Shown in pieces: positions 20,476-55,383 of a stretch of 64,000 nt of DNA (the first letter of the stretch is position 1; every line of letters begins with the position of its first letter). Under the pieces are notes generated by a model that was not told where the DNA came from, did no database searches, and saw nothing but the letters and a program-made list of their open reading frames with translations. The position numbers and the translations under genes were made by a program. This stretch comes from Natronomonas pharaonis DSM 2160 (lineage in GTDB: Archaea; Halobacteriota; Halobacteria; Halobacteriales; Haloarculaceae), in assembly GCF_000026045.1 (NCBI RefSeq), contig NC_007426.1:992001-1056000 (forward strand). Direction: 5' to 3'.

Positions 20476-21123
20476 ATGTTCGAAACACTAACAGAAACGA
20501 AGGAACGCGGTCAGGTTGGAATCGGTACCCTGATCGTTTTCATCGCGCTGGTCCTTGTGGCGGCCATCGCGGCAGGGGTGCTTATCAACACCGCCGGGTT
20601 CCTCCAAACGCAAGCACAGGCAACCGGAGAAGAAAGTACAGAACAGGTCTCAACCAACCTCGTCTACCTCAGCACCACCGGTGAAGTTGTGGAAGATGGT
20701 ACTGGCAGCCTCGTTGGAATCGACCAGTTCGAAACGACGGTACAGTTGGGTCCGGGTTCGAGTGCGATTGACCTGAACGACACGACAATCTCGGTCTTCA
20801 CTGACGACGGTGAATCCGAGGAGTTCGATGGGGTTGATGAGGGTGACTCCCTCACTGATGATGGAATTGAATTCGATGACACCGACCGTGACTCATCGGT
20901 ACTCAGCACTGACGCAACTGATGACGATGCAACCGCGACCATCGTGTTCGGCCTGGATGATGCAAGCGATGGAATCAACCCTGAGGACGACCGGTTTGAC
21001 GAAGGCACGACGGTTGATATTGTGATAACGACGGCTGAGGGGACGCAGGCTGAAAACAGCTTCATCATTGAAGATCCGCTTGACCCGCAGCTTGATGACG
21101 AGGACGAGATCCGGCTTGATTAG
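20476..21123 (+). CDS. flgA1: Archaellin (archaeal flagellin) 1
   Basis: This 215-residue prearchaellin has a class III signal peptide cut after Gly in [13 protein letters not shown], then the hydrophobic assembly helix (~14-35). The conserved [20 protein letters not shown] segment and an acidic beta-rich outer domain follow, ending EIRLD. An N-glycosylation sequon NDT is present. It forms the archaellum filament after processing by the prepilin peptidase PibD/ArlK (not in this window). Eight bases separate its stop from the next archaellin. Confidence 0.95.
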
Positions 21124-21131
21124 ATAAGACA

Positions 21132-21755
21132 ATGTTTGAACAATTCACAGAGAGTGAGGAGCGCGGTCAGGTTGGCATTGGTACCCTGATTGTGTTCATC
21201 GCGCTGGTCCTCGTGGCGGCCATCGCGGCAGGGGTGCTTATCAACACCGCCGGGTTCCTCCAAACGCAAGCACAGGCAACCGGAGAAGAAAGCACAGAAC
21301 AGGTCTCAACCAACCTCGTCTTCCTCAGCACCACCGGCACTGTCTCCGACGCTGAAGATGGAATTGACTCGTTCAATACGACGGTGCAGTTGGGTCCAGG
21401 TTCGAGTGCGATTGACCTGAACGACACGACAATCTCGGTGTTCACCGACGATGGCCAATCGCAAGAGTTCAGTGGGGTTGATGAAGACACTGACAACAAC
21501 GACGGCGGAATCGAATTCGAAGATGACAGCCGTGATTCGTCGGTGTTGAGTACGGACTCCACTGATGACGACGCAACCGCAACCATCGAGTTCGATATAG
21601 GCGATGCTAATGAACTGAGTGAGCCTTTCGAAGAGGGGACGACGGTTGATATTGTGATTACGACGTCGGAGGGCACACAGGCAGAAAACAGCTTCATCAT
21701 CGAAGACCCGCTTGACCCACAGCTTGAGGGCGGCGACGAAATCCGGCTTGATTAG
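21132..21755 (+). CDS. flgA2: Archaellin 2
   Basis: At 207 residues this paralogue has the same signal peptide and N-terminal helix as its neighbours. It differs in the middle loop ([31 protein letters not shown]), which is the surface-exposed part. Sequons NTT and NDT are visible. Its first ~215 bases differ from archaellin 3 at only about three positions. The same TAG-ATAAGACA-ATG junction precedes it and archaellin 3. Confidence 0.95.
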
Positions 21756-21763
21756 ATAAGACA

Positions 21764-22396
21764 ATGTTTGAGCAATTCACAGAGAGTGAGGAGCGCGGTC
21801 AGGTTGGTATTGGTACCCTGATTGTGTTCATCGCGCTGGTCCTCGTGGCGGCCATCGCGGCAGGGGTGCTTATCAACACCGCCGGGTTCCTCCAAACGCA
21901 AGCACAGGCAACCGGAGAAGAAAGCACAGAACAGGTCTCAACCAACCTCGTCTACCTCAGCACCACCGGCACTGTCTCCAATAGTGAAGATGGAATTAAC
22001 CAGTTTGAGACGACGGTACAGTTGGGTCCGGGTTCGAGTGCGATTGACCTGAACGACACGACAATCTCGGTCTTCACTGACGACGGTGAATCCGAGGAGT
22101 TTGACAGCCTTGCGGAAGACGGAATCGAACTTGAGGACCGGTCTGATGACGAGGCAGTTCTCAGTACCGCCTCCAGTGATGACGATGCAACCGCGACCAT
22201 CGTGTTCGACCTGACTGATGGCGACGGGATCGACCCTGAAGACGGCCAATTTGACGAAGGGACAACGGTTGATATTGTGATTACGACGGCAGAGGGAACA
22301 CAGGCAGAAAACAGCTTCATCATCGAAGACCCCCTCGACCCACAGCTTGATGGCAACACCGACCCCGACCAGGCCGACGAAATCCGCCTCGGCTAA
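21764..22396 (+). CDS. flgA3: Archaellin 3
   Basis: This 210-residue archaellin has the N-terminal region of archaellin 2 and a variable segment ([25 protein letters not shown]) closer in places to archaellin 1. The C-terminus extends to [19 protein letters not shown]. It is the last gene of the tandem; a T-rich stretch lies just after the stop. Whether it is a major or minor filament subunit cannot be told from sequence. Confidence 0.95.
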
Positions 22397-22407
22397 CGCG
22401 GATACCA

Positions 22408-22428
22408 CCTAATTCCTTCCTTTTATTA
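22408..22428 (+). terminator. T-rich stretch after the archaellin genes
   Basis: AATTCCTTCCTTTTATTA, 12-30 bases after the archaellin 3 stop, is the only T-rich tract in the neighbourhood. Archaeal RNA polymerase commonly stops at such tracts. No strong hairpin precedes it. Confidence 0.4.
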
Positions 22429-22518
22429 CCCAACCCACCAGCCGCAGCACTCACCGCCGAACTCGGCGCGTGAAACACCGACCCTCCTTATACGTCCACA
22501 TCCACTTTGCTCGTGTAT

Positions 22519-23079
22519 ATGCACCGACGGACGTTCGTTTCGGGGGTCGCGGCCGGCGCGGTCGCCGGGCTGGCTGGCTGTCTCGGCGGCGACGACGATG
22601 CGCCGACGACTGACGAGGGACACATCGAGGCGCTGCGGGCGGAGATTACCGACCGCGGCGTCGAGGTCGATTCGGTCGAACTCGAAGACCGTATCGTGAG
22701 CGTCGAGCACGGCTTTGATGAGGACCCCAACGACGCGATTGCCAACGTGGCGATGGCGTTCGTCGAGCGGATTATCGATGAGTGGGATGTCGAGCGGCTA
22801 GAAGGCCACCTCCACGACGAGGGCAACGACTGGTCGTGGCACGCCGAAACGGAGTGGGCACAGGAGTACGCCGACGAGGAAATCGGCCCCGAGGAGTACG
22901 GCCAGCGCATCAGCGAGACGATGGCGATGGTTATCGACGAGGACGGAGCAAGCGAAACCGACACCGATGAAGACGACGACGCGGGCGACGACGGCGGCGA
23001 GAACGCCGACGACGGGTCGGACGGCGGCGACGCCGACGGAGACGCCGATAGCGACGACGAACCGACCGACGACGAGTAG
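22519..23079 (+). CDS. Twin-arginine lipoprotein in the archaellin locus, unknown function
   Basis: The 186-residue protein starts MHRRTFVSGVAAGAVAGLAG-C: a twin-Arg signal with a lipobox Cys, so it should be Tat-exported and lipid-anchored. A ~110-residue domain with VERIIDEWDVERLEGHL and ETEWAQEYADEEIGPEEYGQ follows, then a very acidic Asp/Gly tail (~150-186). ATG 22519 was chosen since the upstream frame start gives no Tat context. Its place between the archaellins and arlF suggests a cell-surface role in motility, but no family is recognised. Confidence 0.75.
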   Translation: MHRRTFVSGVAAGAVAGLAGCLGGDDDAPTTDEGHIEALRAEITDRGVEVDSVELEDRIVSVEHGFDEDPNDAIANVAMAFVERIIDEWDVERLEGHLHDEGNDWSWHAETEWAQEYADEEIGPEEYGQRISETMAMVIDEDGASETDTDEDDDAGDDGGENADDGSDGGDADGDADSDDEPTDDE

Positions 23080-23303
23080 CCGCCCGCCGCGCACGCACGA
23101 ATCACATCTTGTTTCGGGCGGTGAAACGGAGGACTGGCTTTAGTGTCAGACGCGGGTATCCGTAGACGAGCACCGACTCGGCGGCCGCGGTATGGGGCAT
23201 CGGTTCCGCGGCCGCCGAGCAGCCCCACTATGAACACTGCGAACGGCATTCAGCGGCACCGCGGGCCCAGCGACGCGGGCAGCCGTTGGTCCGGCCCGAA
23301 GAC

Positions 23304-23312
23304 GGGGGTGAG
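23304..23312 (+). promoter_or_regulatory. Shine-Dalgarno site of arlF
   Basis: GGGGGTGAG ends six bases before the arlF ATG at 23318 and matches the 3' end of haloarchaeal 16S rRNA (GGTGA core). The same sequence, GGGGTGAG at 24361-24368, precedes the second arlG gene at a similar spacing. These are notable because most genes in the window look leaderless. Confidence 0.65.
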
Positions 23313-23317
23313 CGTCG

Positions 23318-23773
23318 ATGGGCTTTAGCGTCAGCGGCTCGGCGGTCATCGTCTTCATCGGGCTGGTTGTCGCTGCTGGCATCGCCGTCCCGCCGCTGAT
23401 GGGGAGTGTTGGCAACCTCGCCAGCGCACAGGGTACCCAAATCGACCAGGGGACAGAGCGGCTCAACACCGACGTTGAAATCGCGGCGGCGACCTACGAC
23501 GACGATGCTGAGGAACTCGACATCGAGCTTGAGAACACCGGTACGACGTCGCTTTCGGTGGCCGACACCGACCTGCTCGTCGACGGGGCGATGCAGACCG
23601 ACGCCGATAACCTAGCAACGACAGTCGAAGGCGACGCTGACGCCGAACTGTGGCTGCCCGCGGAGACGCTGACGATGACGGTGGGTGCGACCACGGAACC
23701 CGACCGAGTGAAGGTCGTCACGGAGAACGGTATCGAACGAGCGACCAACGATATCACCGACGGTGAGACATGA
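23318..23773 (+). CDS. arlF: Archaellum stator protein ArlF (FlaF)
   Basis: The 151-residue protein opens with MGFSVSGSAVIVFIGLVVAA, the characteristic ArlF start and single N-terminal membrane helix. A beta-sandwich ectodomain with conserved LENTGTTSL and ADTDLLVDG follows. ArlF binds the S-layer and, with ArlG, anchors the motor outside the membrane. The next gene's ATG overlaps its stop by four bases. Confidence 0.88.
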   Translation: MGFSVSGSAVIVFIGLVVAAGIAVPPLMGSVGNLASAQGTQIDQGTERLNTDVEIAAATYDDDAEELDIELENTGTTSLSVADTDLLVDGAMQTDADNLATTVEGDADAELWLPAETLTMTVGATTEPDRVKVVTENGIERATNDITDGET

Positions 23774-24270
23774 GTGGGATTTCCGCCTCGACGCTGATTA
23801 TTTTCATCGCCAGCATCCTCGTGGCGGCGGGCGTGGCCGGAACGCTCGTGACGACTGTCGGTGACATCTCCACCTCCGCCGAATCGCAGGGTGATGCCAT
23901 CAGTGAGTCAATAAACACCGATATAGAGATACTCAACGACGGCCGTGGGTCCAGCTTTTATCAGGAGGATGTCGAGAACAACGACGGGGAGACTGTGGAT
24001 GCACTGATTACGCTGTATGCCAGAAACGCCGGCTCGACCTCCTTACATCAGGACCCGGATAGGATTAACGTCCTTGTCAATGGGCAACTCATCACATCGG
24101 AGAATCTCAATCTGGAGTCGCCCAACGGCGGCGACGACGAGGTCTGGGCCGAAGACGAAGTCCTCGAGTTCGAGATAACGCTCGATGAGGAGCTGGATGG
24201 CAGCGGCAACCGAGTGTCGATCTCGGTCGATGGCTCCGAGCGAGCCATCGAGTTCCCCGCGGAGGCGTAA
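23770..24270 (+). CDS. arlG: Archaellum stator protein ArlG (FlaG), copy 1
   Basis: At 166 residues, it has an N-terminal helix SASTLIIFIASILVAAGVAG resembling pilin/ArlG, a helical linker (SESINTDIEILND), and a beta-rich ectodomain with NAGSTSLHQDPDRINVLVNG. ArlG forms filaments capped by ArlF in the stator. It overlaps arlF by ATGA, implying translational coupling. Confidence 0.85.
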   Translation: MSGISASTLIIFIASILVAAGVAGTLVTTVGDISTSAESQGDAISESINTDIEILNDGRGSSFYQEDVENNDGETVDALITLYARNAGSTSLHQDPDRINVLVNGQLITSENLNLESPNGGDDEVWAEDEVLEFEITLDEELDGSGNRVSISVDGSERAIEFPAEA

Positions 24271-24276
24271 TATACC

Positions 24277-24381
24277 ATGATACGACAACCAACACAGGCG
24301 CTCGAATCGATGCGGTGCTGTTGCCGCTGTGGCGGTCGCAGTGCTGCCGGGGCCGTGGCGGGGGTGAGAAGCGATGGGTAG
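24277..24381 (+). CDS. Possible 34-residue Cys-rich micro-ORF between the two arlG genes
   Basis: A frame starting seven bases after arlG1 reads MIRQPTQALESMRCCCRCGG and then a basic Gly/Ala tail, ending eight bases inside arlG2. The CCCxC cluster might bind metal, but third-position bias is weak and no RBS is seen. The segment may simply be a spacer carrying the arlG2 RBS. Its position would couple the two genes if it were translated. Confidence 0.2.
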   Translation: MIRQPTQALESMRCCCRCGGRSAAGAVAGVRSDG

Positions 24382-24835
24382 TGTCTCGGCGTCGCACCTG
24401 ATAATCTTCATCGCCAGTCTCGTCGTCGCCGCTGGTGTCGCCGGTACGCTCGTTACCGAGGTCGACCGGGTGAGCCAGTCGATAACCGAACAAAGCGACG
24501 GGATGAGCGAGAGCATCGAGACGGATATCCAGATTATCAGCGACACCGGCGCAGACGGAATCTACGACGATGGCAGCGACGAGGTCACGCTATTGGTCAA
24601 GAACGTCGGCGCAGTGGAGTTACCGGCCGAACCGGAGCGTATCGACCTGCTGATCGAGGGACAATTTATCAACCCGGATGCCGTAGAAGCGGAGGTAGTC
24701 GGTGACGACGAGGTATGGACACCGGGGGCTGTGGTTCGCATCGAGGCCGACACGGACGATGTCGACATCGACGGCGAAACGCGGGTCTCGGTCAGCGTCA
24801 ACGAAAACGAGGCCACCATCCAGTTCAGAGCCTAA
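24374..24835 (+). CDS. ArlG (FlaG)-like protein, copy 2
   Basis: The 153-residue paralogue is homologous to the preceding ArlG along its whole length: SASHLIIFIASLVVAAGVAG matches copy 1, SESIETDIQIISD matches its linker, and VKNVGAVELPAEPERIDLLI aligns with its ectodomain. It is 104 bases after copy 1 and has its own strong Shine-Dalgarno. Two ArlG proteins could form a heteromeric stator filament; that is inference. Confidence 0.82.
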   Translation: MGSVSASHLIIFIASLVVAAGVAGTLVTEVDRVSQSITEQSDGMSESIETDIQIISDTGADGIYDDGSDEVTLLVKNVGAVELPAEPERIDLLIEGQFINPDAVEAEVVGDDEVWTPGAVVRIEADTDDVDIDGETRVSVSVNENEATIQFRA

Positions 24836-27693: not shown

Positions 27694-29193
27694 TCACACG
27701 AGCCCGGCGACGCTCGGGCTGATAAAGCCCTCAATGAAGCCGGCTACAGCCAGTACGACGCCGATACCGACAAGCACCCAGAAGCTTCTCTCGATGCGGT
27801 CGGCCAGTTCGGCATCCGAACACCGTCCACGGAGCCGCCGCCAGCCGGCGACGCCGAGCCACAGCCCAGCCGCGCCCGCCGCGATGATGGCCGGAATCTC
27901 AAGGACACCGTGTGGAGCGACAAACGCAGCGAGCGCTTCGGGGTCGGCCTCAAGCCGGCCGTACACGCCGAAGACGACGCCGTTAAACACCAGCGACGCC
28001 GCTGCGGGCACCGCCAGTGTAAGCCCCGAAAGGGCCGTCCCCACCGCGACGGTCCAGTTGTTGGCAGCGAAAAAGACCGCCGCCGTCGGCGCGAAGTGGT
28101 CCTCCAGCCGCGCCTCGATAGAGGCTGTTACGAGGCCCTCATAGGGGGCCGCGAGCATCCACCCGAGTCCAAACCCGCCGAGGATGAGCCCCGTCGCAAC
28201 GGCGTGGGTCCCCGGCGTTGCCCGAACGAACGCCCCGAGCTCGGCAAGGCCGCGCCGGAGCCCGGAACTGAGCTGTGCCGCCGCCGACCGCTCGGGTACG
28301 GCCGGCGGCGCGATGGCATCGACCGTCCCCGCATACAGCGCCGTCTTCAGCACAGCCAGCGCGGGCGAGACGACCACAAAGCCCGCGACAGCGGCAGCCC
28401 GGGCACCGGCCTCGCCACCGCCGCTCAACACGCCGACGACGCCGAGTAGGCCGAGAGCCAGCAGATAGTAGCCGACGGCGTCACCAGCGTTGCGCCGGAT
28501 GTAGCCACCAGCGCGCCGGAGCCCATCCCCGGCACCGACGCCGTCTTCGACGACGGCCACCGGAGCGAAGGCGAAAAGCGCCCGGATGCAGACGACGGCG
28601 GCGAGCCACGCGAGCGTGACCACCAACGCAACGGCGACAAAGAGAATGCCTGGGAGCAGCAGCGCCGCCATCGCGCCGGCCACGCCCGCGACGGCCGTCG
28701 CGAGCACCCACAGGAAGACCTCGAAGACGACGAGCACGACCATCGCTCCCGTGTGCCTGCGTGCGCCCGCGAGCGCGGCCGTCGTTCCCCGTCGGTCACG
28801 AAGCGTCGCCACGGACGCCGAAAGCTGTGCCGCGAGTGCGACACCGTACAGCGCGACGAACAACACGACGGCGACAAGCGCTGTCACTGCCAGCAGCCCG
28901 ACTACTGCAGGGGGCAAGAGCACCTCGAAGACCGGGACCAGCTCTTCGAGCCACGCTTCAAACGCCGGGTCCTCCGGCGATGGTGGGTCGAGTTCGCGGT
29001 CTGCGAGCGCTGACTGGAACCGTTCGAGCCGCCCCGTTGTCGCCAAGTACAGATAGGACAGCGCGAAGCCGCCGAGCCCGACGACCTGTACGACAGCGGA
29101 GATAGCTGGGGTCAAAAAGAACGCCGGGAGGAGGTCGCTTGCTCGGCCGCGAAACACCGCGATGACGGCACGGAGCGCAGGGGCAATGGCCAT
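27694..29193 (-). CDS. Large membrane protein with C-terminal SpoIIM-like domain
   Basis: About 499 residues and nine to ten membrane helices. The C-terminal ~170 residues match the stage II sporulation protein M family (FFAANNWTVAVGTALSG, SLVFNGVVFGVYG, FVAPHGVLEIPAIIAAGAAG). The N-terminal part resembles haloarchaeal multi-pass proteins with repeated glycerophosphoryl-type membrane blocks (RRAGGYIRRNAGDAVGYYLL). ATG 29193 has TTTTAATA about 26 bases upstream; an upstream TTG frame start is less likely. Haloarchaea do not sporulate, so the role is probably membrane organisation or transport. Confidence 0.75.
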   Translation of the reverse strand: MAIAPALRAVIAVFRGRASDLLPAFFLTPAISAVVQVVGLGGFALSYLYLATTGRLERFQSALADRELDPPSPEDPAFEAWLEELVPVFEVLLPPAVVGLLAVTALVAVVLFVALYGVALAAQLSASVATLRDRRGTTAALAGARRHTGAMVVLVVFEVFLWVLATAVAGVAGAMAALLLPGILFVAVALVVTLAWLAAVVCIRALFAFAPVAVVEDGVGAGDGLRRAGGYIRRNAGDAVGYYLLALGLLGVVGVLSGGGEAGARAAAVAGFVVVSPALAVLKTALYAGTVDAIAPPAVPERSAAAQLSSGLRRGLAELGAFVRATPGTHAVATGLILGGFGLGWMLAAPYEGLVTASIEARLEDHFAPTAAVFFAANNWTVAVGTALSGLTLAVPAAASLVFNGVVFGVYGRLEADPEALAAFVAPHGVLEIPAIIAAGAAGLWLGVAGWRRLRGRCSDAELADRIERSFWVLVGIGVVLAVAGFIEGFISPSVAGLV

Positions 29194-29387
29194 GGCAGGG
29201 GCCACGGGCGCGCCGATATTAAAACCGGGAGACAAGTGGAAACTGTTGTTTAGTTTTCTTTTGTTTTATTGGCTGTAGCGGCTCTCTACGTCGACTTTCT
29301 GATTTGCAAACGTTGCCCTATTTTCGACTATATCTACCACAGATTTATTTACTATGAAAGACAATCCACGATAGAGACCGATTCGCA

Positions 29388-31964
29388 ATGGTGGGGGCTA
29401 TACGCAAAGCGTTGGCAGATATCCGTGGACAGTCGAACGTCGTCGGGTCGATACTACTGGTCGCGATTGTACTGGTGGTCGTGGTCGGCTTCGGCGCGGC
29501 GACGTTTCCGAACTACGCGACAGACAACAGCGACCCGAACGTTGATATCGAAGTGGCCGATGTCACCGCAAATGAGGTCGAAATCGCACACACCCAGGGT
29601 GATTCGCTGAACGCCGATGAGGTCGAGGTTAGAGTAGATAGTGGGTCGTCGTATGTGTCCGACAGCGAACGCTACGACGACACTGATAGCTTTGACCAAG
29701 GCGATTCCGTGTTTAGAACGCACTTCGTTGATGAAGGCGACACGGTTGAAGTGATGGTCATCGATGAGGTGACGAATACAGTGCTGTTGGATACAGAGGA
29801 GCTGGTTCCGGAAGCGGAGCCGTCGGCACTCAGCGTGAGCATCGACTCCGTCTCCGAAGAGGTCTACATTGATGAAGACGCGGTCGAAGACGACAACGAA
29901 CTGGTCGGTATTGACCACATCGGAGACGAAGCAGAGCTTGAATACACGGTGAAAAACGAGGGCGGGCAGCCGGTGACCATAGAAAGTGAGGACCTCCGGC
30001 TGGAAGTCGGCACCGGTGGCTACGAGGCATACACCAACATCAACGACCCCACCACGCTCGAAGGCTACACTGAATCCGGCGACGCACACGTCGAATCTGA
30101 CATCATAGACGATTGGGACCTCACCGGCGCACAGCAGCAAGGGGTTGCCAACACCGACGAGACAAACGTCGCATTGTTCGCCAACGGCGTCTCTGACGAC
30201 GCCGAAATCACCGTCTACGGTGGCCCCCACTTCGACCCAGAAATCCAGAATACCACCGAGACGATAAACGCCACTGAGACGTTCGAATTCGAGGCAAACG
30301 TCACGAACGACGGCGACCTGCCCGACACCCAGACGATTAACGCAACGCTGTACGACCTCGACAACCAAACGGTGGTCGACAGTGTGCTCAATGAAAAGAC
30401 CCTCTCGTTGGACCCTGAAGAGCACGATACAGCCGACTTCGAAAACGATGATGGCCTCGAAATCCCTGAATACGGCCACGACACGCGCCTCCAGGTCAAC
30501 GTCACGACACACAACGCCGAGGTGGAAGACGGCTACGAAACGGAGACAATCGATGTCAACGCTCCGCCGAGCTTCACTGTCGACCTCAATGACGCCCCCG
30601 AAGCTATCGAAGTCGATGAGGTGGCGACGATGAATGCCACCATCGAAAACATCGGCGACAACCCCGGCGAGCAGACAGTTTCACTCGATGTCCCTGACGC
30701 AGACCCCGAAACCGCCGAGGAGGAAACGATAGAGCTTGCCGCTGGCGAAGAGACCGATGTCAGTCTCGATGTCGTATTCACCTCCGAGGATGTCGGCACC
30801 GTCGACATCGCCGTCCAAAGCGAAGACAGCAGCGAGCAGGCACGTAGCGTCACCGTCTACGAGCCGATGGAGGTCGAGCTCGAAGAGCCCGCTCCGGTCT
30901 TCGCCGAAGAGGAAGCGACCATCACAGCGACCGTAACAAACCCGAACGAACACGCTGCACAGTCAGAGGAACTGACACTGTGGCTCGGTGACGACGACGA
31001 AGAAAACGACCCCGCCGAGGTCTGGAGCGGAACGGTTGAGGTTGATGCCGGCGGGGAGACGACAGTAAGCGAAGAACACATCCCCGGCAAAGAGGAGGTC
31101 CGTGACGTGCCGGTTGACGCCGAACTTGAACGTGGCGGCGAAGACAGCACGGAAATCCACGTTGAGAACCTCTATGTTGGATTCGACGGTATCTCCGACA
31201 CGGAGACCAGCGGCCTCCTCTCCGGTGATGGTGCTCGCGTCGAAGCTCCCGTTGTCTACGACTCCACTATCAGTGTTACAGTAGAAGAAGTTCGAATCGA
31301 CAATGTCGAACACGCCGACCCGCTCCGGGTCAGCCAGCATAGCTTCGACGGCGGCGCGACCCTCAAGTTCGGCGACCAAGAGGTGATGGAACGCGATTGG
31401 TTCGACGAAGGAATCTACGTCGGTGAAACTGTGGAGATAACGAATTTCGACCTCCCTGCCGTAGAGAATGAACTCGCCGATAGTATCGTCTTCAACCGGT
31501 TCGCCGACGAGCCCGGGGGAATCACGGGTATCGTCGACGTCTGGGTGGCCCACGACATGCGCGGTGCGAATTACGACTTTACCCTCATCGGCGAATCAGA
31601 AGACCTGACTGACGTCGATGGGGACCCCCGCGACATTGAACGGTCGATTACCGTTAACGTTCCCGCCGGGGACGAAGTGCCCACGGAAGACGAACTCGAA
31701 GAGCATGCTGAAGACCTCGAAGCGGCTTACGAGACCGTCAGCGAAGACGCCGACGAGTTAGACGACGACCAGCAGGAAGCCGTCGATGAAGTCGGTGACT
31801 ACGTCGAGGGGGTCGACAGCGATATTGACGCGACTGAGAACGAAAACGACCGCATCGGTGTCCAAAACGACATCAATGCCAACTACGCCGTGCTCGAAGA
31901 GGCCTATGACGACATCGACTGCGACTGGCACCAAGTCTTGGGCTGGACCTGCGGCGACCTCTGA
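29388..31964 (+). CDS. Giant type IV pilin-like surface protein (858 aa)
   Basis: The N-terminus IRGQSNVVGSILLVAIVLV has the archaeal type IV pilin signature: charged leader, cleavage after Gly (RG|QS) and an assembly helix. Instead of the ~150 residues usual for pilins, ~820 residues follow. They include several CARDB-like beta-sandwich modules (~280-610: EFEANVTNDGDLPDTQTINA, MNATIENIGDNPGEQ, ITATVTNPNEHAAQ), a further beta domain, and a helical acidic C-terminus with two Cys (DCDWHQVLGWTCGDL). Many NxT sequons occur. Upstream DNA (29240-29370) is unusually A/T-rich. Confidence 0.8.
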   Translation: MVGAIRKALADIRGQSNVVGSILLVAIVLVVVVGFGAATFPNYATDNSDPNVDIEVADVTANEVEIAHTQGDSLNADEVEVRVDSGSSYVSDSERYDDTDSFDQGDSVFRTHFVDEGDTVEVMVIDEVTNTVLLDTEELVPEAEPSALSVSIDSVSEEVYIDEDAVEDDNELVGIDHIGDEAELEYTVKNEGGQPVTIESEDLRLEVGTGGYEAYTNINDPTTLEGYTESGDAHVESDIIDDWDLTGAQQQGVANTDETNVALFANGVSDDAEITVYGGPHFDPEIQNTTETINATETFEFEANVTNDGDLPDTQTINATLYDLDNQTVVDSVLNEKTLSLDPEEHDTADFENDDGLEIPEYGHDTRLQVNVTTHNAEVEDGYETETIDVNAPPSFTVDLNDAPEAIEVDEVATMNATIENIGDNPGEQTVSLDVPDADPETAEEETIELAAGEETDVSLDVVFTSEDVGTVDIAVQSEDSSEQARSVTVYEPMEVELEEPAPVFAEEEATITATVTNPNEHAAQSEELTLWLGDDDEENDPAEVWSGTVEVDAGGETTVSEEHIPGKEEVRDVPVDAELERGGEDSTEIHVENLYVGFDGISDTETSGLLSGDGARVEAPVVYDSTISVTVEEVRIDNVEHADPLRVSQHSFDGGATLKFGDQEVMERDWFDEGIYVGETVEITNFDLPAVENELADSIVFNRFADEPGGITGIVDVWVAHDMRGANYDFTLIGESEDLTDVDGDPRDIERSITVNVPAGDEVPTEDELEEHAEDLEAAYETVSEDADELDDDQQEAVDEVGDYVEGVDSDIDATENENDRIGVQNDINANYAVLEEAYDDIDCDWHQVLGWTCGDL

Positions 31965-32004: not shown

Positions 32005-33036
32005 ATGTCCCTGCTCATCTACGGTGCCTACGGCTACACCGGCGAACTCATTGCTGAAGAAGCAGTCGACCGTGACCTCGATGTCGTCGTCGCTGGCCGC
32101 GACAAACGGAAGGTCCGTGACCTCGCCGCCCGGCTGAACTGCAAGGGCCGCCGCTTCGACCTCGATGCCGCTGCCGACAACCTCGACGATATCGAAGCAG
32201 TTCTCAACTGCGCCGGACCGTTCGTTGAAACCTATGAACCGCTCGTCGAGGCGTGTCTGGAGACCGGCACCCACTATCTGGATATCACCGGCGAGCTTTC
32301 GGTCTTCGAAGCCATCGCGGAGCGGGACCGAGAGGCCGAGAAGGCCGGCGTCTGCCTGTTGCCGGGCGTGGGCTTTGACGTGGTGCCAACCGACTGTCTG
32401 GCCGGTCACCTCCACGATATGCATCCGTCGGCCGACGAACTGCGGTTGGGCTTTGACCCCTCGGGGACCATCTCGAAGGGGACGCTCGCGTCGGTCATCG
32501 AACATCTCGACGAGGGAGGCAAGGTTCGCCGAGACGGTCGCCTCGTCGACGTGCCGCCGGCACACAAGCGCCGATATATTGATTTCGGCCGCGGCGAGCG
32601 GTCGGCGGCGACGATTCCGTGGGGTGATGTCTCGACGGCCTACTACACGACCGGCATCGAAAACATCGAGGTCTACACGGCGATGCCGAGCGAGGCCGCT
32701 ATCGCGCTGAAATACGGCAGCGGTATCGTCAGTCCAGTGCTGGGTGCCGAGCCGGTCAAAGGCGCGCTACAGACGCTCGCAAAGACGGTCGTCTCCGGCC
32801 CCTCCGAAAAACAGCGACGCGAGGGCGTCTGTTACGTCTGGGGTGAGGCGACCGACGGCGAGCGAACGGTCACCGCACGACTGAAGACCCCAGAGACGTA
32901 CGCGCTGACGGTCGACGCCGCCACAACGGCGGCAGCGCGTATCCTCGACGACGCGCCAGCCGGCTTCGAGACGCCGGCAGCAGCATTCACACCGGAGTTC
33001 GTTCTTGCCCTCGATGGCGTCGAGGGCTTCTTCTGA
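32005..33036 (+). CDS. Saccharopine dehydrogenase-like NAD(P)-binding oxidoreductase
   Basis: This 343-residue protein has an N-terminal Rossmann fold (LLIYGAYGYTGELIAEEAV) and AGPFVETYEPLVEACLETGT, both typical of saccharopine dehydrogenase-like proteins and 'trans-acting enoyl reductases'. GVGFDVVPTDCLAGHL marks the second domain. The substrate is not evident; haloarchaeal members may act on isoprenoid or lipid intermediates, but that is conjecture. Its start is 40 bases after the giant pilin gene. Confidence 0.82.
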   Translation: MSLLIYGAYGYTGELIAEEAVDRDLDVVVAGRDKRKVRDLAARLNCKGRRFDLDAAADNLDDIEAVLNCAGPFVETYEPLVEACLETGTHYLDITGELSVFEAIAERDREAEKAGVCLLPGVGFDVVPTDCLAGHLHDMHPSADELRLGFDPSGTISKGTLASVIEHLDEGGKVRRDGRLVDVPPAHKRRYIDFGRGERSAATIPWGDVSTAYYTTGIENIEVYTAMPSEAAIALKYGSGIVSPVLGAEPVKGALQTLAKTVVSGPSEKQRREGVCYVWGEATDGERTVTARLKTPETYALTVDAATTAAARILDDAPAGFETPAAAFTPEFVLALDGVEGFF

Positions 33037-40159: not shown

Positions 40160-41583
40160 CGGAAGCCCACCGGCTTTAGCCGTGGGAGGAAGCGCGTAAG
40201 CTCCATGCAACAATCCACCGACTACAACATTGCCGACTCCCTAACGCTATCAAACATATTAATAAAGAGTAGCTACTGCTGTGACGTACATGGCGTGGGA
40301 GGTAACTCGAACGGTTCGCGTCCGTCTCGACGTACCTGACGACCGCAAGAGTGACCTCCATGCCACCAACTCCAAATTCCAGTACTGCGCGAACCGTACC
40401 GCAGACTGGGCGTGGCGCTACCCCGACGAGAGCTGCGTAACCAGCAAGAGCGAAGCCGAAGCCGCCATCTACGACGACCTTCGTGAAGAAACAGACTACC
40501 TACACGCGAACCTTGTCCAGAAGGCCATCAAACGCGCCACCGACGACATTGGCAACTGCGTTGACCGGCTTGCAGACGGTGAGAACACCAGCAAGCCACA
40601 TTACGATACGTTCAGCATCGTCTACGACAAGCGAGCGGCCACTTACTACCGTGACAAAGTGAGTCTCGCCACAGTCAACGGGAGGGTCGAATGCGAATAC
40701 GACCTCTCCGACGACCCAGACGGCACACCACACGGCGAATACCTGCTGAACGACGATTATTCCTTTTCGACCAGCACCGTCCACTACGACTCAGAAACCG
40801 ACGAGTTCTACCTACACGCCGCGATGGAACGGAAACTCGACGTGAGCAGTCCTGAGAAAGCCGAGCATTCGAGAGTGCTTGGCGTGGACTGCAACGTTGA
40901 TGACCACATTGCCGTGACCTCGACGGGTGCGTTCGTCGGGAACGCCGACTACCTTAACCATCAACGCCGAGAGTTCGAGAAGCGACGTGCCAGCCTCCAA
41001 CAGACGGGGACACGGAGCGCCCATCTGACCTTCCAGCGCATTGGCGACACGTTCGGACGCTGGAGCGAAGACTATCTGCACCAGTGTTCCAAAGAAATCG
41101 TTGCCGAAGCCAAGCGCCACGGTTGTACGCACATCGCCTTCGAGAACTTGGAGCAGATTCGAGCGCGTATCAGCGACGACAAAAAATTCCAACAATGGGC
41201 GTTTCGCGCACTCCAAGAACAAACCGAACACAAGGCAGAAATGGCTGGTATCGTCGTCAAAACAGTCGAACCATCCTACACCAGCCAGCAATGCTCGAAG
41301 TGTGGCTGTACGCTCGAAGAGAATCGTGACGGTCAACAGTTCCAGTGTCTCGACTGTTCGTACACGGCAAACGCCGACTACAACGCAGCAAAAAACATCG
41401 CTCGGAAACTCGCACTCAAACTCCAGCGAGGGCAGAAGTCCCCCGCTGGAGGGGCGTTCTGTCAGTACGCCCTGAAGTCGGGGACAATGACCGTGAACGC
41501 TACTGAAGTGGCGTCCGATACCTACGTATCGGCTGAACGGGAGTCCACCGACAAGCCAACGGCTTCAGCCGTTGGTAGCTGAC
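40160..41583 (+). mobile_element. IS200/IS605-family tnpB-only (IS1341-type) element
   Basis: A single tnpB gene is framed by a left hairpin (CCCAC-CGGCTTTAGCCG-TGGG, 40166-40186) and a right perfect hairpin (CCAACGGCTTCAGCCGTTGG, 41556-41575) that lies inside the 3' end of tnpB. No tnpA (Y1 transposase) is present, so it is non-autonomous. Exact ends are inferred; the left boundary is the less certain. Confidence 0.72.
40290..41582 (+). CDS. tnpB: TnpB, RNA-guided RuvC-type nuclease
   Basis: About 430 residues. RuvC catalytic positions appear intact: Asp in VLGVDCNVDDHIAV, Glu in HIAFENLEQIR, Asp in ANADYNAAKNIARKL. The zinc ribbon CSKCG ... CLDC lies between the last two. TnpB uses an omega RNA from the element's right end to cut target DNA. 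ATG 40290 was preferred to GTG 40281; TATTAATA lies about 30 bases upstream. The C-terminus (ESTDKPTASAVGS) is encoded by the right-end hairpin. Confidence 0.92.
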   Translation: MAWEVTRTVRVRLDVPDDRKSDLHATNSKFQYCANRTADWAWRYPDESCVTSKSEAEAAIYDDLREETDYLHANLVQKAIKRATDDIGNCVDRLADGENTSKPHYDTFSIVYDKRAATYYRDKVSLATVNGRVECEYDLSDDPDGTPHGEYLLNDDYSFSTSTVHYDSETDEFYLHAAMERKLDVSSPEKAEHSRVLGVDCNVDDHIAVTSTGAFVGNADYLNHQRREFEKRRASLQQTGTRSAHLTFQRIGDTFGRWSEDYLHQCSKEIVAEAKRHGCTHIAFENLEQIRARISDDKKFQQWAFRALQEQTEHKAEMAGIVVKTVEPSYTSQQCSKCGCTLEENRDGQQFQCLDCSYTANADYNAAKNIARKLALKLQRGQKSPAGGAFCQYALKSGTMTVNATEVASDTYVSAERESTDKPTASAVGS

Positions 41584-41597
41584 GCGTGGACAGCGCT

Positions 41598-42323
41598 TTA
41601 CCCGAGCGTGAACGATTCGTCGCCGTCGAGAACGACCGCCTCGGCGTCGGCACCGGTCGCGTTGAGCGCGTCGACGAACTCGTCGGTGTCGATTTCGATG
41701 GGCGGGAACGTATCGTAGTGCATCGGCGCGGCGTAGTCGGCACCGAGCCAGTCGGCGGCGATGGCGGCCTGCTCCGGCCCCATCGTGAAGTGGTCGCCGG
41801 CCGGCAGCGCCGCGAAGTCGGGTTCGAGATACGGGCCGATGACCTCGCGCATCTCGACCATCAGGCTGGTGTCGCCGGCGTGGTAGAAGGCGGTGTTGGC
41901 GGCGTCGGAGGCTCGCTGCGGTTCCGACTCGGAGACGACGAAGCCGGCGGGCATCCCGGCGGAGGTTTCGTAGCCGGTTTCGATGCCGTTGGAGTGGTCG
42001 GCACGGGTCATCGTCACCCACGCATCGCCGCACTCGACGCTGCCGCCGAGGTTCATCCCCATTCCGCCGACGGCGTCTTCGAAGCCGAAGTTGTCCTCGG
42101 CGTAGCCGACGAGTTCGGGCGTCGCAACCAGCGTCGCGTCGCTGAACGCGCCGGCGTGGGCGACGTGGTCCTCGTGGCCGTGTGTGAGAAGCACGTAGTC
42201 CGGGCTGTCGAGGTCGGACGGTTCGAGGTCGGTTTTCGGGTTGCCGAAGAAGGGGTCGATAAGCAGGTCGGTGCTGCCAACGCTGACATGCCACGTCGAG
42301 TGGCCGTACCAAGTGAGCTCCAT
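41598..42323 (-). CDS. UPF0173-type metal-dependent hydrolase (metallo-beta-lactamase fold)
   Basis: The 241-residue protein carries the fold's metal motif [12 protein letters not shown], then [18 protein letters not shown] and the late [10 protein letters not shown] with conserved His. N-terminal [13 protein letters not shown] is typical of UPF0173. Substrate unknown. Upstream in-frame sequence is ignored because ATG 42323 gives the canonical start. It is convergent with the transposon just downstream. Confidence 0.9.
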
Positions 42324-42414
42324 TACAGCCGGCGGTACTCCCGCGTTCGTATTAATATTGGGGCCGAGGCCAGTACCGACTAGTATACCTCTCTGGAGAC
42401 CACCAGTGTCCGCC

Positions 42415-43677
42415 ATGGAGATACGACGCGCAGTGACAGAGCCGGCGCTGTCGGACGCCTTCGCCGTGCGACGGGCGGTCTTTGTCGACGAACAGGGCGT
42501 CGACGAGGACATCGAAATCGACGGCAACGACGGCGATGCACTGCAGTTTCTCGCGTACGACGACGGTGCGGCGGTCGGTACGGCCCGGCTCAGACGCCCG
42601 GCCCCGGCCATCGGCAAGGTAGAGCGGGTGGCCGTCCGCGAGCCGTACCGTGGCCGTGGCGTCGGCCGGGCGCTGATGGAAGCCGTCGAAGCCGCTGCCG
42701 CCCGGCTCGGCTGCCGTGAACTCCAGCTTCACGGTCAGACTCGGGTCGAGCCGTTCTATCGCCGCCTCGACTACGAGCCGGAAGGCGAGCCCTTCGACGA
42801 GGCGGGGATACCGCATCTGAAGTTCCGGAAGTCGGTCGACGGCAGCGGCGGCGACCCCACCGCAGCCGCCGCCGAGTCCCCGGCAGTTATGGCCGCTGGG
42901 GCCGACGGCACGCTCATGCGACAGGCACGATTCGAAGACCCGGACGGCGATGTTCGGTACGGTGAGCTGTTCGAGGACGGCACCGTTCGCGCGTACCCGA
43001 AACAGGAAAAGCGGTTGACTGCCGCCGAAGAACGCTTCGACCGGGACGACATCGAGCTGCTGGCTCCCTGCGACCCCTCGAAAATCGTCTGTGTCGGGCT
43101 CAACTACGCCGACCACGCCGACGAGCAGGGCAAGGCGGTCCCCGACCGTCCGCTGCTGTTTTTGAAGCCGCCAAACACGGTTGCGGCCCCTGAGGACACG
43201 CTGGAGCTGCTCGCTGACCGCCAGCTCGACTACGAGGCGGAACTTGGCGTCGTCATCGGCCAGCGGTGTCGCAACGTCGCCGAGGCCGATGCGATGGATG
43301 TCGTTGCGGGCTTTACCTGCGTCAACGATGTTTCCAACCGCGACGACCAGGCCGTCGAGACGAACTGGGTTCGCGGGAAAGCCTTCGATGATGCCGCCCC
43401 GCTCGGCCCGGCCATCGCAACGCCGGAGGCGGTTCCCGAGGACGCGGCGATTCGGTGTCGGGTCAACGGTGACCTCCGGCAGGACTCCTCGCGGGACCAG
43501 TTCATCTTCTCGGTGCCGGAACTCATCGCGGAGATAACCAGCTACATGACGCTTGAACCCGGCGACGTGGTTTCGACCGGGACCCCGGAAGGGGTCGGCC
43601 CGCTGGCCGACGGCGATACGGTCGAGGTCGAAATCGAAGGTATCGGCACGCTGAAAAACGACGTCCGGATTCCGTAG
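42415..43677 (+). CDS. GNAT acetyltransferase fused to fumarylacetoacetate hydrolase-family domain
   Basis: The 420-residue frame joins two domains. Residues 1-150 are a GNAT fold ([14 protein letters not shown], acetyl-CoA loop [15 protein letters not shown], ElaA-like). Residues ~167-420 are an FAH domain ([35 protein letters not shown]-like [44 protein letters not shown]). The linker is Ala/Gly/Asp-rich. An internal ATG at 42916 begins exactly where stand-alone FAH proteins start, so this may be two proteins in one frame or a true fusion. Confidence 0.82.
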
Positions 43678-49570: not shown

Positions 49571-51208
<1,638 letters not shown>

Positions 51209-51210
51209 TC

Positions 51211-51972
51211 ATGCAGAAGACACGCAACCTTCATTCACTCGGACTCGACGACCACGACCGGCTCAACAAGGAACTCGGGGGCGGCATCCCGAAGGGAAGC
51301 ATCGTCCTCGCGGAGGGTGACTACGGGGCCGGCAAGAGCGCCCTCTCCCAGCGGATGGCCTACGGCTTCTGCGAGGAGGGGACGACGGTCACTTTCCTGT
51401 CGACGGAACTGACAGTCAGTGGCTTCCTCGACCAGATGAATTCACTCTCCTACGACGTCGTCGACCACGTCCTCGATGAGCGGCTGCTGTTCCTCCATGC
51501 CGATATCGACACTGGCGGGGTCCTCTCCGGGGGCAGCGACGACGAGGAATCGCGAATGGACCTGCTGACCCGGTTGATGGAGGCAGAGACGATGTGGACC
51601 GCGGATGTCATCATCATCGATACCTTCGACGCCGTACTGCGAAACGACCCGACCTTCGAGGCGCTCATTCGGCAAAACGAGGAGCGACAGGCGGCCCTCG
51701 AGATTATCTCCTTCTTCCGTGACATGATTTCGGAAGGGAAGGTAATCGTTCTCACTGTCGACCCGTCGACGGTCGACGGCGACGCCATCGGGCCGTTCCG
51801 AGCCATCGCCGACGTGTTCCTCGAACTCGAAATGATAGAGGTCGGCAACGACGTCCGGCGGCAGATATCCGTCAAGCGATTCGCCGGGATGGGCGAACAG
51901 GTCGGTGACACCATCGGATTCTCCGTCCGGTCGGGAACTGGAATCGTCATCGAGAGCCGCAGTATCGCATAA
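51211..51972 (+). CDS. arlH: Archaellum motor ATP-binding protein ArlH (FlaH)
   Basis: The 253-residue RecA/KaiC-like protein has Walker [20 protein letters not shown] and Walker [14 protein letters not shown]. It assembles as a ring on ArlI and regulates its switch between assembly and rotation. In the family the Walker motifs bind ATP with little hydrolysis. Stop and arlI start are three bases apart. Confidence 0.95.
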
Positions 51973-51975
51973 ACG

Positions 51976-53649
51976 ATGACAGAACAGGGAACCGTCAAGC
52001 CGTCAGACGAGCTTCGGGAGGCAGCGTCACGTCGGCCGCACCTTCGCGAGCATCTCAAGAAGTTCAAGCAGATTACCGGCGAGTTCCCGCTGTTTGTCGA
52101 AGAAGCCGACAGCGAGTACGAGTCAAAACGCCCCAACATTCTCTACCCGGTTGGCGGCCCGATTTACTGTCACATCTACGGTGACGTCGGCCGTGACACG
52201 AAATACTACGCCATCGAGCCGACACTCACCGGCGAAGAACAGCATGTCTTCGAACAAATAAAGGATGAACTCCTCAGGCGGAGCGTCACAAAGCAAGCCC
52301 CGGAAAGCGAAGCCGAGTACGGCGACCGAATCGAGGAGCTGCTCTCGGAGGCGACCCGCATTACCGGCGAAGAGCCGGACAGCATCCTTGAGAACATCAA
52401 ATTCAAACTCGACCCCAACACGAAGGAGATAACCCAAGAGACCTTCGAGGACATTCGATACCGGCTCAACCGCGATATCGTCGGCCTCGGGCCGCTGGAA
52501 CCGGTCATGCGCGACCCGGCCAACGAGGACATTCACGTCATCGGCCCCGACGAGTGCTACGTCGACCACGGTGTCTTCGGGATGTTGAAGACGACTGTCG
52601 ACTTCGGGACCGACGAGGAGTTCGACAACTGGCTGCGGAACATGGGCGAGCGCATCGGCGACCCGCTTAGCGACTCCGACCCCATCGTCGACTCGACGCT
52701 GCCGGACGGCTCCCGTCTGAACGTTATCTACAGCGACGACGTGAGCCTGAAGGGTCCCAGCCTCACCATTCGACAGGGTGACGAAGTGCCGCTCTCGGTC
52801 AATCAGATTACCAACTGGGGTACGCTGTCGCCGGAGCTGGCCGCCTACCTGTGGCTCTGTCTGGAGAACGAACAGACCGTCTTCGTTGTCGGAGAGACCG
52901 CATCCGGCAAGACGACGACGCTAAACAGCATTATGTCGTTCATCCCTCGGGACTCGAAGATATACAGTGCCGAGGACACCGCCGAGGTGCTCCCGCCTCA
53001 CGACACGTGGCAACAGCTCCTGACCCGCGAGGGCGGCGGCGAGGACACCGAAGACGTCGACATGTTCAATCTCGTCGAGGCAGCACTGCGGTCCCGCCCG
53101 GAGTACATCATTGTGGGTGAGGTCCGTGGTGAGGAGGGTCGGATGGCCTTCCAGGCGGCCCAGACCGGCCACCCGGTGATGTTGACGTTCCACGCGTCCG
53201 ACATCGTCTCGATGATTCAGCGCTTTACGGGCGAACCCATCAACGTCCCCGAGACGTTCATGGACAACGCCGACGTGGCGCTGTTCCAGAACCGCGTCAA
53301 GCAGGGCGACGACGTGCTTCGCCGGGTCACAAGCGTCCAAGAAATCGAGGGCTACTCGAAGGAGATGGAAGGTGTAGTCACCCGACAGGTGTTCTACTGG
53401 GACCCCGTCGAGGACGAAATCGTCTTCCAGGGCCGAAACAACTCCTACGTGCTTGAAGACCAGATTGCGGAGCTTCTCGGCTACGCAGACACGAGGCAGA
53501 TATACAACGACCTCCAGTACCGTGCCGACATTATCGAGCGGATGATACAGGAGGATATTCTCGGCTATCACGAGGTCAACGAGGCAATCGCTTCCTTCCA
53601 GCGGGACGGCATCGAAGGGCTTCCGTTCACCGTCGCCCGGAGGGACTAG
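51976..53649 (+). CDS. arlI: Archaellum motor ATPase ArlI (FlaI)
   Basis: The 557-residue type II/IV secretion ATPase hydrolyses ATP for filament assembly and rotation. Motifs present are Walker A VVGETASGKTTTLNS, the Asp box YSAEDTAEVLPPH, Walker B YIIVGEVRGEEGRMAFQA, and the His box TGHPVMLTFHASD. An N-terminal domain with DIVGLGPLEPVMRDPANEDI precedes them. Length is typical for haloarchaea. Confidence 0.96.
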   Translation: MTEQGTVKPSDELREAASRRPHLREHLKKFKQITGEFPLFVEEADSEYESKRPNILYPVGGPIYCHIYGDVGRDTKYYAIEPTLTGEEQHVFEQIKDELLRRSVTKQAPESEAEYGDRIEELLSEATRITGEEPDSILENIKFKLDPNTKEITQETFEDIRYRLNRDIVGLGPLEPVMRDPANEDIHVIGPDECYVDHGVFGMLKTTVDFGTDEEFDNWLRNMGERIGDPLSDSDPIVDSTLPDGSRLNVIYSDDVSLKGPSLTIRQGDEVPLSVNQITNWGTLSPELAAYLWLCLENEQTVFVVGETASGKTTTLNSIMSFIPRDSKIYSAEDTAEVLPPHDTWQQLLTREGGGEDTEDVDMFNLVEAALRSRPEYIIVGEVRGEEGRMAFQAAQTGHPVMLTFHASDIVSMIQRFTGEPINVPETFMDNADVALFQNRVKQGDDVLRRVTSVQEIEGYSKEMEGVVTRQVFYWDPVEDEIVFQGRNNSYVLEDQIAELLGYADTRQIYNDLQYRADIIERMIQEDILGYHEVNEAIASFQRDGIEGLPFTVARRD

Positions 53650-53652
53650 CCA

Positions 53653-55383
53653 ATGGGCGTCGCCGAGCGCAGCGCCCAACTGACCGACCTCGTCGGCTCC
53701 ATCCTCGATGCGTACGACAGGATGGAGATGGACGCCAAGACCTACGTCTTGGCGGTGCTGTTGCCGACGACGGTGCTTTTTCTCGGCAGCATCGTGCTGG
53801 CGTTGGTCTGGCAGACGATACTGCTGGTGCGGCTGCTGTTTCCCCTCCTCGGGGCGGTCCTGCTCGGTGCTGGCGTCGCCTACCCGAAACTCGCGATGGA
53901 CCAGCGCCGCATCGAGATGGAAAACCGGTTCCACCTGCTCGTGACGCATATGACGGTGCTTTCGACGACGAACATCGACCGGATGGAGGTGTTCCGGAAG
54001 CTCTCGAAGGAAGAAGAATACGGAGAGCTGACAGTCGAGATGCGCCGCATCGTCCAGCTCGTCGATACGTGGAATCAGAGCCTCGACGACGCGCTCCGGC
54101 GACGGGCAAAAGAGGTCCCCAGCGACTCGCTGACTGATCTGTTCGACCGGCTGGCATACACCCTCGGAGCCGGCCAGGAAATGTCCGATTTCCTCTTCGA
54201 GGAACAGGGCGTGATGATAGAAAACTACAAGACCATCTACCAGCAGTCGCTGGAGAACCTCGACGTGATGAAGGACCTCTATCTGTCGATGGTGCTCTCG
54301 ATGACGTTTGCGCTGGTTTTTGCCGTCGTCCTGCCGATTCTGACGGCAACGAACCCGACGTGGACGGTCGCAGCCGTCATCGCGATGTTCGTCTTCGTAC
54401 AGGTCGGGTTCTTCCTCGTTATCCGTGCGCTCGTCCCGCACGACCCGCTGTGGTACATTGAGGAAGGCTACCGGACTCGCTCGAAACAGAAGCTCGTCGG
54501 CAGCTCAGTCCTAGCCGTCGTACTCTTTTTGCTCATCGTGCTCGTGATGACGGCCAGTTCGTTCGGCGTGGCACCGTTCGATTCGCTCGTGCCCATGGCC
54601 TCGATACCCACGCCGTTGTACCTCGCGATACCGACGCTGCCGTTTCTGATACCCGCCATCGTCTTCCGCCGACAGGAGAAAGCGATTATCGAGCGCGACG
54701 AGGAGTTCCCGAGTTTCATTCGGGCACTCGGGGCCAGCGAGAGCGCAAAGCAGTCGACGACCTCGACGGTGCTGAAGACGCTCCGAAAGAAGGACTTCGG
54801 CGCGTTGACGCCGAACGTCGACGACCTCTATCGGCGGCTGAACATGCGGATCAACACCGAGCGGGCGTGGCGATACTTCGCCGAGGACACTAACTCCTAT
54901 ATTATCCAGAAATTCAGCGAGATGTACCTCATCGGCCGCTCGATGGGTGGGAACCCGAAGATGCTCGGCGAGCTGATAAGCGAGAACATGAACGAGCTCT
55001 GCCAGCTCCGCGAACAGCGGCGGCAAGTAACTGTGACGCTCATCGGACTACTGTACGGTATCTCGGCGGCGTCCGCCTTCGCCTTCTTTACTGGGCTTGA
55101 AATCGCCATCATTATGGCCGGCTTCGACCTCGAGATGGGGACCGCCCAGTTCGACTTCGGCCAGTTGCTCCACACCGAGATGTACAACGTGCCGCTGCTC
55201 CGCTACCTGCTGTTGCTCGTTATTCTGTTCAATGCCGTTATGTCAGCACTGACGATACGGGTTGCTGACGGGGGCCACTACGGCAACGCCTTCCTACACT
55301 TCGTCGCGCTCGTGTGGGTTGGCTGTATGACCGCTTTCGCAACCGAATCGCTGATTAGCATGCTACTGGACATAGACCTATGA
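53653..55383 (+). CDS. arlJ: Archaellum membrane platform protein ArlJ (FlaJ)
   Basis: At 576 residues it has two T2SSF-type cytoplasmic helical bundles and about nine membrane helices: helix sets at ~30-90, ~220-265 and ~290-340, and a C-terminal cluster at ~465-575. It is the membrane platform into which archaellins are inserted and on which ArlI acts. Its stop overlaps the cheF ATG by four bases. Confidence 0.93.
   Translation: MGVAERSAQLTDLVGSILDAYDRMEMDAKTYVLAVLLPTTVLFLGSIVLALVWQTILLVRLLFPLLGAVLLGAGVAYPKLAMDQRRIEMENRFHLLVTHMTVLSTTNIDRMEVFRKLSKEEEYGELTVEMRRIVQLVDTWNQSLDDALRRRAKEVPSDSLTDLFDRLAYTLGAGQEMSDFLFEEQGVMIENYKTIYQQSLENLDVMKDLYLSMVLSMTFALVFAVVLPILTATNPTWTVAAVIAMFVFVQVGFFLVIRALVPHDPLWYIEEGYRTRSKQKLVGSSVLAVVLFLLIVLVMTASSFGVAPFDSLVPMASIPTPLYLAIPTLPFLIPAIVFRRQEKAIIERDEEFPSFIRALGASESAKQSTTSTVLKTLRKKDFGALTPNVDDLYRRLNMRINTERAWRYFAEDTNSYIIQKFSEMYLIGRSMGGNPKMLGELISENMNELCQLREQRRQVTVTLIGLLYGISAASAFAFFTGLEIAIIMAGFDLEMGTAQFDFGQLLHTEMYNVPLLRYLLLLVILFNAVMSALTIRVADGGHYGNAFLHFVALVWVGCMTAFATESLISMLLDIDL

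Follow-up and report, generated by a model that had tools for sequence, protein, structure and literature searches.

A large Natronomonas pharaonis protein that probably joins a complete type IV pilin to CARDB and Ig-like modules

On balance, one open reading frame of Natronomonas pharaonis DSM 2160 appears to encode a modular, presumably minor, pilin, in which a complete type IV pilin (residues 1-143) carries a large C-terminal graft. The frame occupies 29388-31964 (+) of the window (the whole 64,000-nucleotide stretch of DNA analysed), starts with ATG, has no internal stop and specifies 858 amino acids. The giant pilin-like protein of the sequence-only reading is real yet no lone oddity: its class recurs in haloarchaea, and this is an extreme member of it. 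The features of the gene and its upstream region are:

29236..29387, +, A/T-rich intergenic region, 38.8% GC over 152 bp
29344-29349, TATA-like TTTATT about 40 nt before the ATG, as read from the sequence
29388..29429, +, prepilin leader, residues 1-14, predicted to be cut after the RG of RG/QS (TIGR02537, Pilin_N, motif in alignments)
29430..29519, +, hydrophobic alpha-1 helix, residues 15-44 (the only hydrophobic segment; helix 2-44 in the model)
29520..29816, +, globular beta domain of the pilin, residues 45-143 (alignment, ends of short pilins, fold match to 8fj5)
29817..30230, +, linker or domain, residues 144-281 (no Pfam match; pLDDT below 50 at 141-266)
30231..30563, +, Ig-like module 1, residues 282-392 (modelled as beta strands, pLDDT mostly 75-96)
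30564..30857, +, CARDB module, residues 393-490 (CARDB over cut-off; modelled strands)
30858..31088, +, CARDB-like module 3, residues 491-567 (CARDB 18.2 bits, below the cut-off of 22.7; strands)
31089..31670, +, residues 568-761, mostly beta or loop (no Pfam match over cut-off)
31671..31964, +, helical bundle, residues 762-858, with Cys845 and Cys855, then the stop (model; Cys positions)

That the protein begins as a prepilin, as first proposed, holds: Pilin_N scores 33 bits in the 858-aa protein against a cut-off of 25.2 (Pfam), and TIGR02537, the archaellin/pilin N-terminal domain of NCBIfam, 20.3 against 20. Residues 1-143 align with 24 segments of other haloarchaeal pilin-like proteins, both short and long, with G20, H68 and G71 invariant (the alignment used for folding omitted the coiled-coil matches L065 and L069). 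Thirteen short relatives whose match extends to about residue 133-142 terminate within the following 1-10 residues, and residues 45-143 end in the last pilin strand. Modelled alone with the alignment, the pilin module has a mean pLDDT of 83.2, a helix at 2-44 and six strands within 52-139, and the best-matching solved structure is 8fj5, the type IV pilus subunit of Haloferax volcanii (Foldseek E 7.5e-6). The VIA comparison with 8fj5 gave Z 10.5 and rmsd 3.6 over 121 aligned residues at 17% identity, the target having 133 residues; the row after it stands at Z 8.9. As modelled, then, residues 1-143 are a complete small pilin fold, beyond a membrane anchor, sharing predicted fold and size with this PilA adhesion pilin. 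An ordinary membrane anchor, the alternative raised for the N-terminus, is disfavoured because the globular domain is complete by alignment and predicted fold. There are two differences from PilA: the start is RG/QSN, not the RAVSPVIG of the two canonical PilA-type pilins of the same genome, and relative to haloarchaeal PilA adhesion pilins there are about 715 extra residues.

Those extra residues, initially put at some 820 of adhesin-like beta structure, number about 715 since residues 1-143 are the whole pilin, and they are clearly Ig/CARDB only at about 282-565. The proposed CARDB modules themselves stand, with CARDB at 30.4 bits in the whole protein (Pfam cut-off 22.7). When segments were run alone in Pfam, 393-491 again gave CARDB over cut-off, 491-596 gave it at 18.2 bits, under cut-off, and 281-393 gave no family over cut-off; the modelled strands support three tandem modules at about 282-565, one of them also by Pfam over cut-off. 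The first module (282-392) holds six of the seven N-glycosylation sequons, all of which lie at residues 288-416. Confidence is uneven in the whole-protein model (mean pLDDT 62.0), with most of 569-761 below 50, and the C-terminal third of the graft matches no recognised Pfam family. The helical, Cys-containing C-terminus seen in the sequence-only reading is borne out by modelled helices at 767-786, 793-815 and 819-850 (block pLDDT across 767-850 mostly 87-94, 61 at the end) and by the presence of only two cysteines in the protein, at 845 and 855. Among 482 Foldseek matches of the whole model at E<=0.001, the 50 listed all have a TMq of 0.19 or less; they are largely proteins with Ig-like domains and are taken to indicate 'tandem Ig' alone. 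The mature product would be strongly acidic, with 229 acidic versus 21 basic residues.

No full-length relatives of the protein were found, and no close relatives of the whole protein in genome contigs, viral contigs, plasmids or PHROGs. The C-terminal third, compared with 391 haloarchaeal genomes, matched its own genome and had no relatives at E<0.001 in the 390 others; seven weak matches (E 0.0017-0.0098) were not accepted as relatives. Searching solved structures by sequence gave a single match, of the helical end to an M-protein with E 0.87. Within the genus, no similar gene was seen beside 12 orthologues of the flanking saccharopine-dehydrogenase gene or 10 of the flanking SpoIIM gene, in flanks of at most about 1.5 kb each, and in one genome (G018) both flanking orthologues are present, separated by 7.7 kb that contains other genes. 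At its locus the gene seems species-specific, as judged mostly from these short flanks.

Though its graft appears singular, the arrangement is not. Twelve genomes of the genus yielded 101 Pilin_N matches, 13 with open frames above 400 aa, and the longest of all the frames is that of the 858-aa protein (868, frames being counted stop to stop and hence longer than genes). In 17 genomes drawn from the class there were also 101 matches, 13 of them above 400 aa, and here the protein is second to a frame of 986 that scores below the family cut-off; its own genome is in both samples. Among 27 other listed matches with frames above 400 aa, two are clearly longer (1123 and 1284) and one is about equal (862). 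The genome itself has seven Pilin_N genes, of which one other is long (527 aa). Twenty-three long proteins were inspected, namely 22 of the 27 listed (G403, G302, G353, G256 and G279 being left out) plus L053 of the same genome; picked for length, they illustrate the make-up of long pilins and not their frequency. A QS-type pilin start is present in 22 of the 23, the exception, L113, having a different pilin-like start. Many have a final strand like VxVVHDPSNTVLYD before the graft, and some have linkers of Thr/Pro or Gly. Pfam was run on 20 of the proteins (all but L111, L112 and L113); 19 reach the Pilin_N cut-off and L110 falls just below it. A further domain is over its cut-off in 12 of the 20 (none in the other eight), as follows:

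L095, L097: Laminin_G_3 (ConA-like lectin)
L096: PA14 and PKD
L099: malectin and PKD
L100, L103: PKD
L105: Big_7
L104, L108: CarboxypepD_reg and CARDB
L114: CarboxypepD_reg (CARDB below its cut-off)
L052: CARDB
L110: fn3

Long frames occur, among other named species, in Halorhabdus salina, H. amylolytica, Haloferax denitrificans (a modular pilin of roughly 630 aa), H. prahovense and H. gibbonsii. L104, L108, L114 and L052 (from Haloferax denitrificans, H. prahovense, Halorhabdus salina and H. amylolytica) have the same order of parts and a like junction, and L104, L108 and L052 resemble the 858-aa protein also in having CARDB over its cut-off; their graft sequences differ, and none matches it full length. 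As a separate observation, made by eye, pilin-like genes adjoin an apparent HMG-CoA synthase gene in three genomes (L050, L051 and L052), and this neighbourhood is recurrent, with other large frames having pilin-like starts or ends nearby.

The closest parallels in design are bacterial. In a modular pilin a linker connects an N-terminal pilin module to a functional module, and such proteins are widespread in bacteria, where the motif IPR012902 retrieved more than 1,200 of them, with 264 architectures (PMC8179133, in excerpt). Streptococcus sanguinis PilB, with vWA, and PilC, with a lectin module modelled at the tip in the available portion of PMC9934059, likewise have a bulky C-terminal graft on a pilin. 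Types of graft are shared between bacterial modular pilins and haloarchaeal long pilins, i.e. the PF13385 lectin, PF13620 and PA14, so far as the same two partial texts go (PMC8179133, PMC9934059). The 858-aa protein, with its Pilin_N, CARDB and modelled Ig strands, is of the same design, but no place in the bacterial lineage is claimed for it: it has archaeal Pilin_N instead of the IPR012902 motif (which was the search handle of the census, not a definition), no bacterial pilin-methylation family at E<=1 (Pfam), and, compared with the S. sanguinis proteins, a CARDB/Ig array and helical end with no vWA or lectin match. A beta-propeller of the PilY1/PilC tip adhesin kind (IPR008707) is also absent at E<=1, and in the model the protein ends in helices. 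The excerpted census has no mention of archaea (PMC8179133), and in the literature on modular pilins and archaea, again in partial texts (including PMC9934059 and PMC10191384), archaeal modular pilins were not found described. A limited search found no paper on haloarchaeal pilins with laminin G, PA14, malectin or PKD, which is no proof of novelty. Large size has precedent, the predicted prepilin-like proteins of archaea being anything from less than 150 to far more than 1000 aa long (excerpt of PMC4371748, citing Szabo 2007). CARDB modules are shared with archaeal surface proteins, surveyed as 914 CARDB proteins in 489 architectures, whose description in the part available contains no pilin start, whereas here the anchor is a pilin (PMC8416519).

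The modular pilin favoured here, a reading that draws on the different modules carried after the pilin by other long Pilin_N proteins, would be exported as a prepilin and cleaved by prepilin peptidase after Gly14, where the motif stands. The hydrophobic helix and the pilin domain, whose fold is predicted, would then enter a type IV pilus at low copy via one of the PilB/PilC-type pairs of the genome. By analogy with bacterial modular pilins, the bulk of the graft may restrict the protein to the tip or to rare positions. The predicted Ig modules, three or more with CARDB, could form a stalk holding the C-terminal domain off the S-layer, where that domain might bind a surface or another cell. A role as tip adhesin is plausible by the same bacterial analogy.

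A broader reading, more tentative than that of the single protein and a little short of an even chance, is that haloarchaeal minor pilins with a QS start take interchangeable adhesive modules at one junction, replacing a PilY1-like tip adhesin, with the 858-aa protein as an extreme, species-specific instance. The modules, equally tentatively, would be ConA-like lectin, PA14, malectin, PKD and CARDB, and the junction would lie after the last pilin strand. The possibility that the 858-aa protein itself combines an Ig stalk with a new C-terminal binding domain is put at much the same strength.

An alternative of lower probability, though the strongest competitor, is a surface protein that is anchored by a pilin-type signal and helix and is never built into a filament, its Ig array spanning the S-layer and its C-terminal domain lying at the surface. 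Such a protein would fit a gene that stands alone, a single, N-terminal hydrophobic segment and a graft some five times the size of the pilin module, and it would fit an interrupted gene for a pilus motor. Several genes for PilB-like ATPases and one for a PilC-like protein are present in the genome, a point in favour of the modular pilin; the PilB3-like ATPase gene is interrupted by an in-frame stop (L143:6745-8580, about 1,399,744-1,401,579 of genome C1), with nine relatives in the genus, at 79-82% identity, having open frames of 605-679 aa. The stop reflects either a motor broken in this strain or an assembly error; it may have disabled the most obvious motor for an adhesion pilus, which counts against the modular-pilin reading. 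Beside same-start relatives in the blasted loci no pilB was seen, which says little because four of the seven ORFs used as T2SSE queries were taken from the wrong strand. The genome has another two PilB-like ATPase genes (L144 and L145, T2SSE over cut-off), each followed by several small genes with, by eye, pilin-like starts. What speaks against a protein that is only anchored is that the whole globular domain of the pilin is kept and predicted to fold, for which a bare anchor would have no need.

The setting of the gene has a bearing on the readings that remain. Its neighbours, and the clusters of motility genes on either side, are:

20476-24835, archaellin genes
27694-29235, -, SpoIIM-family gene, neighbour of the 858-aa gene
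32005-33036, +, saccharopine-dehydrogenase-like gene, neighbour of the 858-aa gene
49571-55383, arlC/DE, H, I and J

The description 'in the motility locus' is loose: the gene does lie between the two arl clusters, but it is in neither. The clusters are some 24 kb apart, with other genes in that interval; the gene itself is solitary, its neighbours are metabolic, and no pilus machinery genes adjoin it. The A/T-rich upstream region that had been remarked on is there, its 38.8% GC comparing with 57-73% in eight other upstream stretches of the window, and the TATA-like TTTATT within it is a putative promoter element. The separate origin suggested from codon bias is another matter: the GC3 of the frame (0.70) is indeed lower than in most neighbours (0.72-0.86), but three archaellins deviate more, and because theirs is still lower (0.60-0.64) the codon argument for foreign origin is weak. 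Elsewhere in the window, the six archaellin-family genes (207-215 aa in three, 151-166 aa in the other three) form two groups with an opposite-strand ORF in between. Between the archaellin and arl clusters lies a TnpB-like gene (40281-41582; Cas12f1-like TNB domain, 76.8 bits), and one frame at 42241-43677 combines GNAT acetyltransferase (81-198) and FAA-hydrolase (281-476) domains, representing an unusual fusion or an over-long start.

Very improbable is a subunit of a bindosome-like structure or pseudopilus serving uptake or secretion, not adhesion; Sulfolobales do use large prepilin-like proteins as substrate binders (PMC4371748, in the part available), but no substrate-binding protein domain is present at E<=1. 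Just as improbable, despite archaellins and arl genes in the same 64 kb, is a component of the archaellum, be it a minor archaellin or part of the base or cap, and the incorporation into its base once proposed is unsupported, given that Arch_flagellin is absent at E<=1 with Pilin_N instead (the six archaellin genes of the window do match it) and that the gene lies outside the arl operons among its metabolic neighbours.

How archaeal pili recognize surfaces and other cells is largely open, and extra modules joined at a fixed junction would be a simple and testable answer. Named species of both Haloferax and Halorhabdus have long pilins of the same design. Should the modules be adhesive, the specificity of archaeal pili could be read from the grafts, and tested by means of them; as in some bacteria, the pili of archaea may bear exchangeable adhesive modules at their tips.
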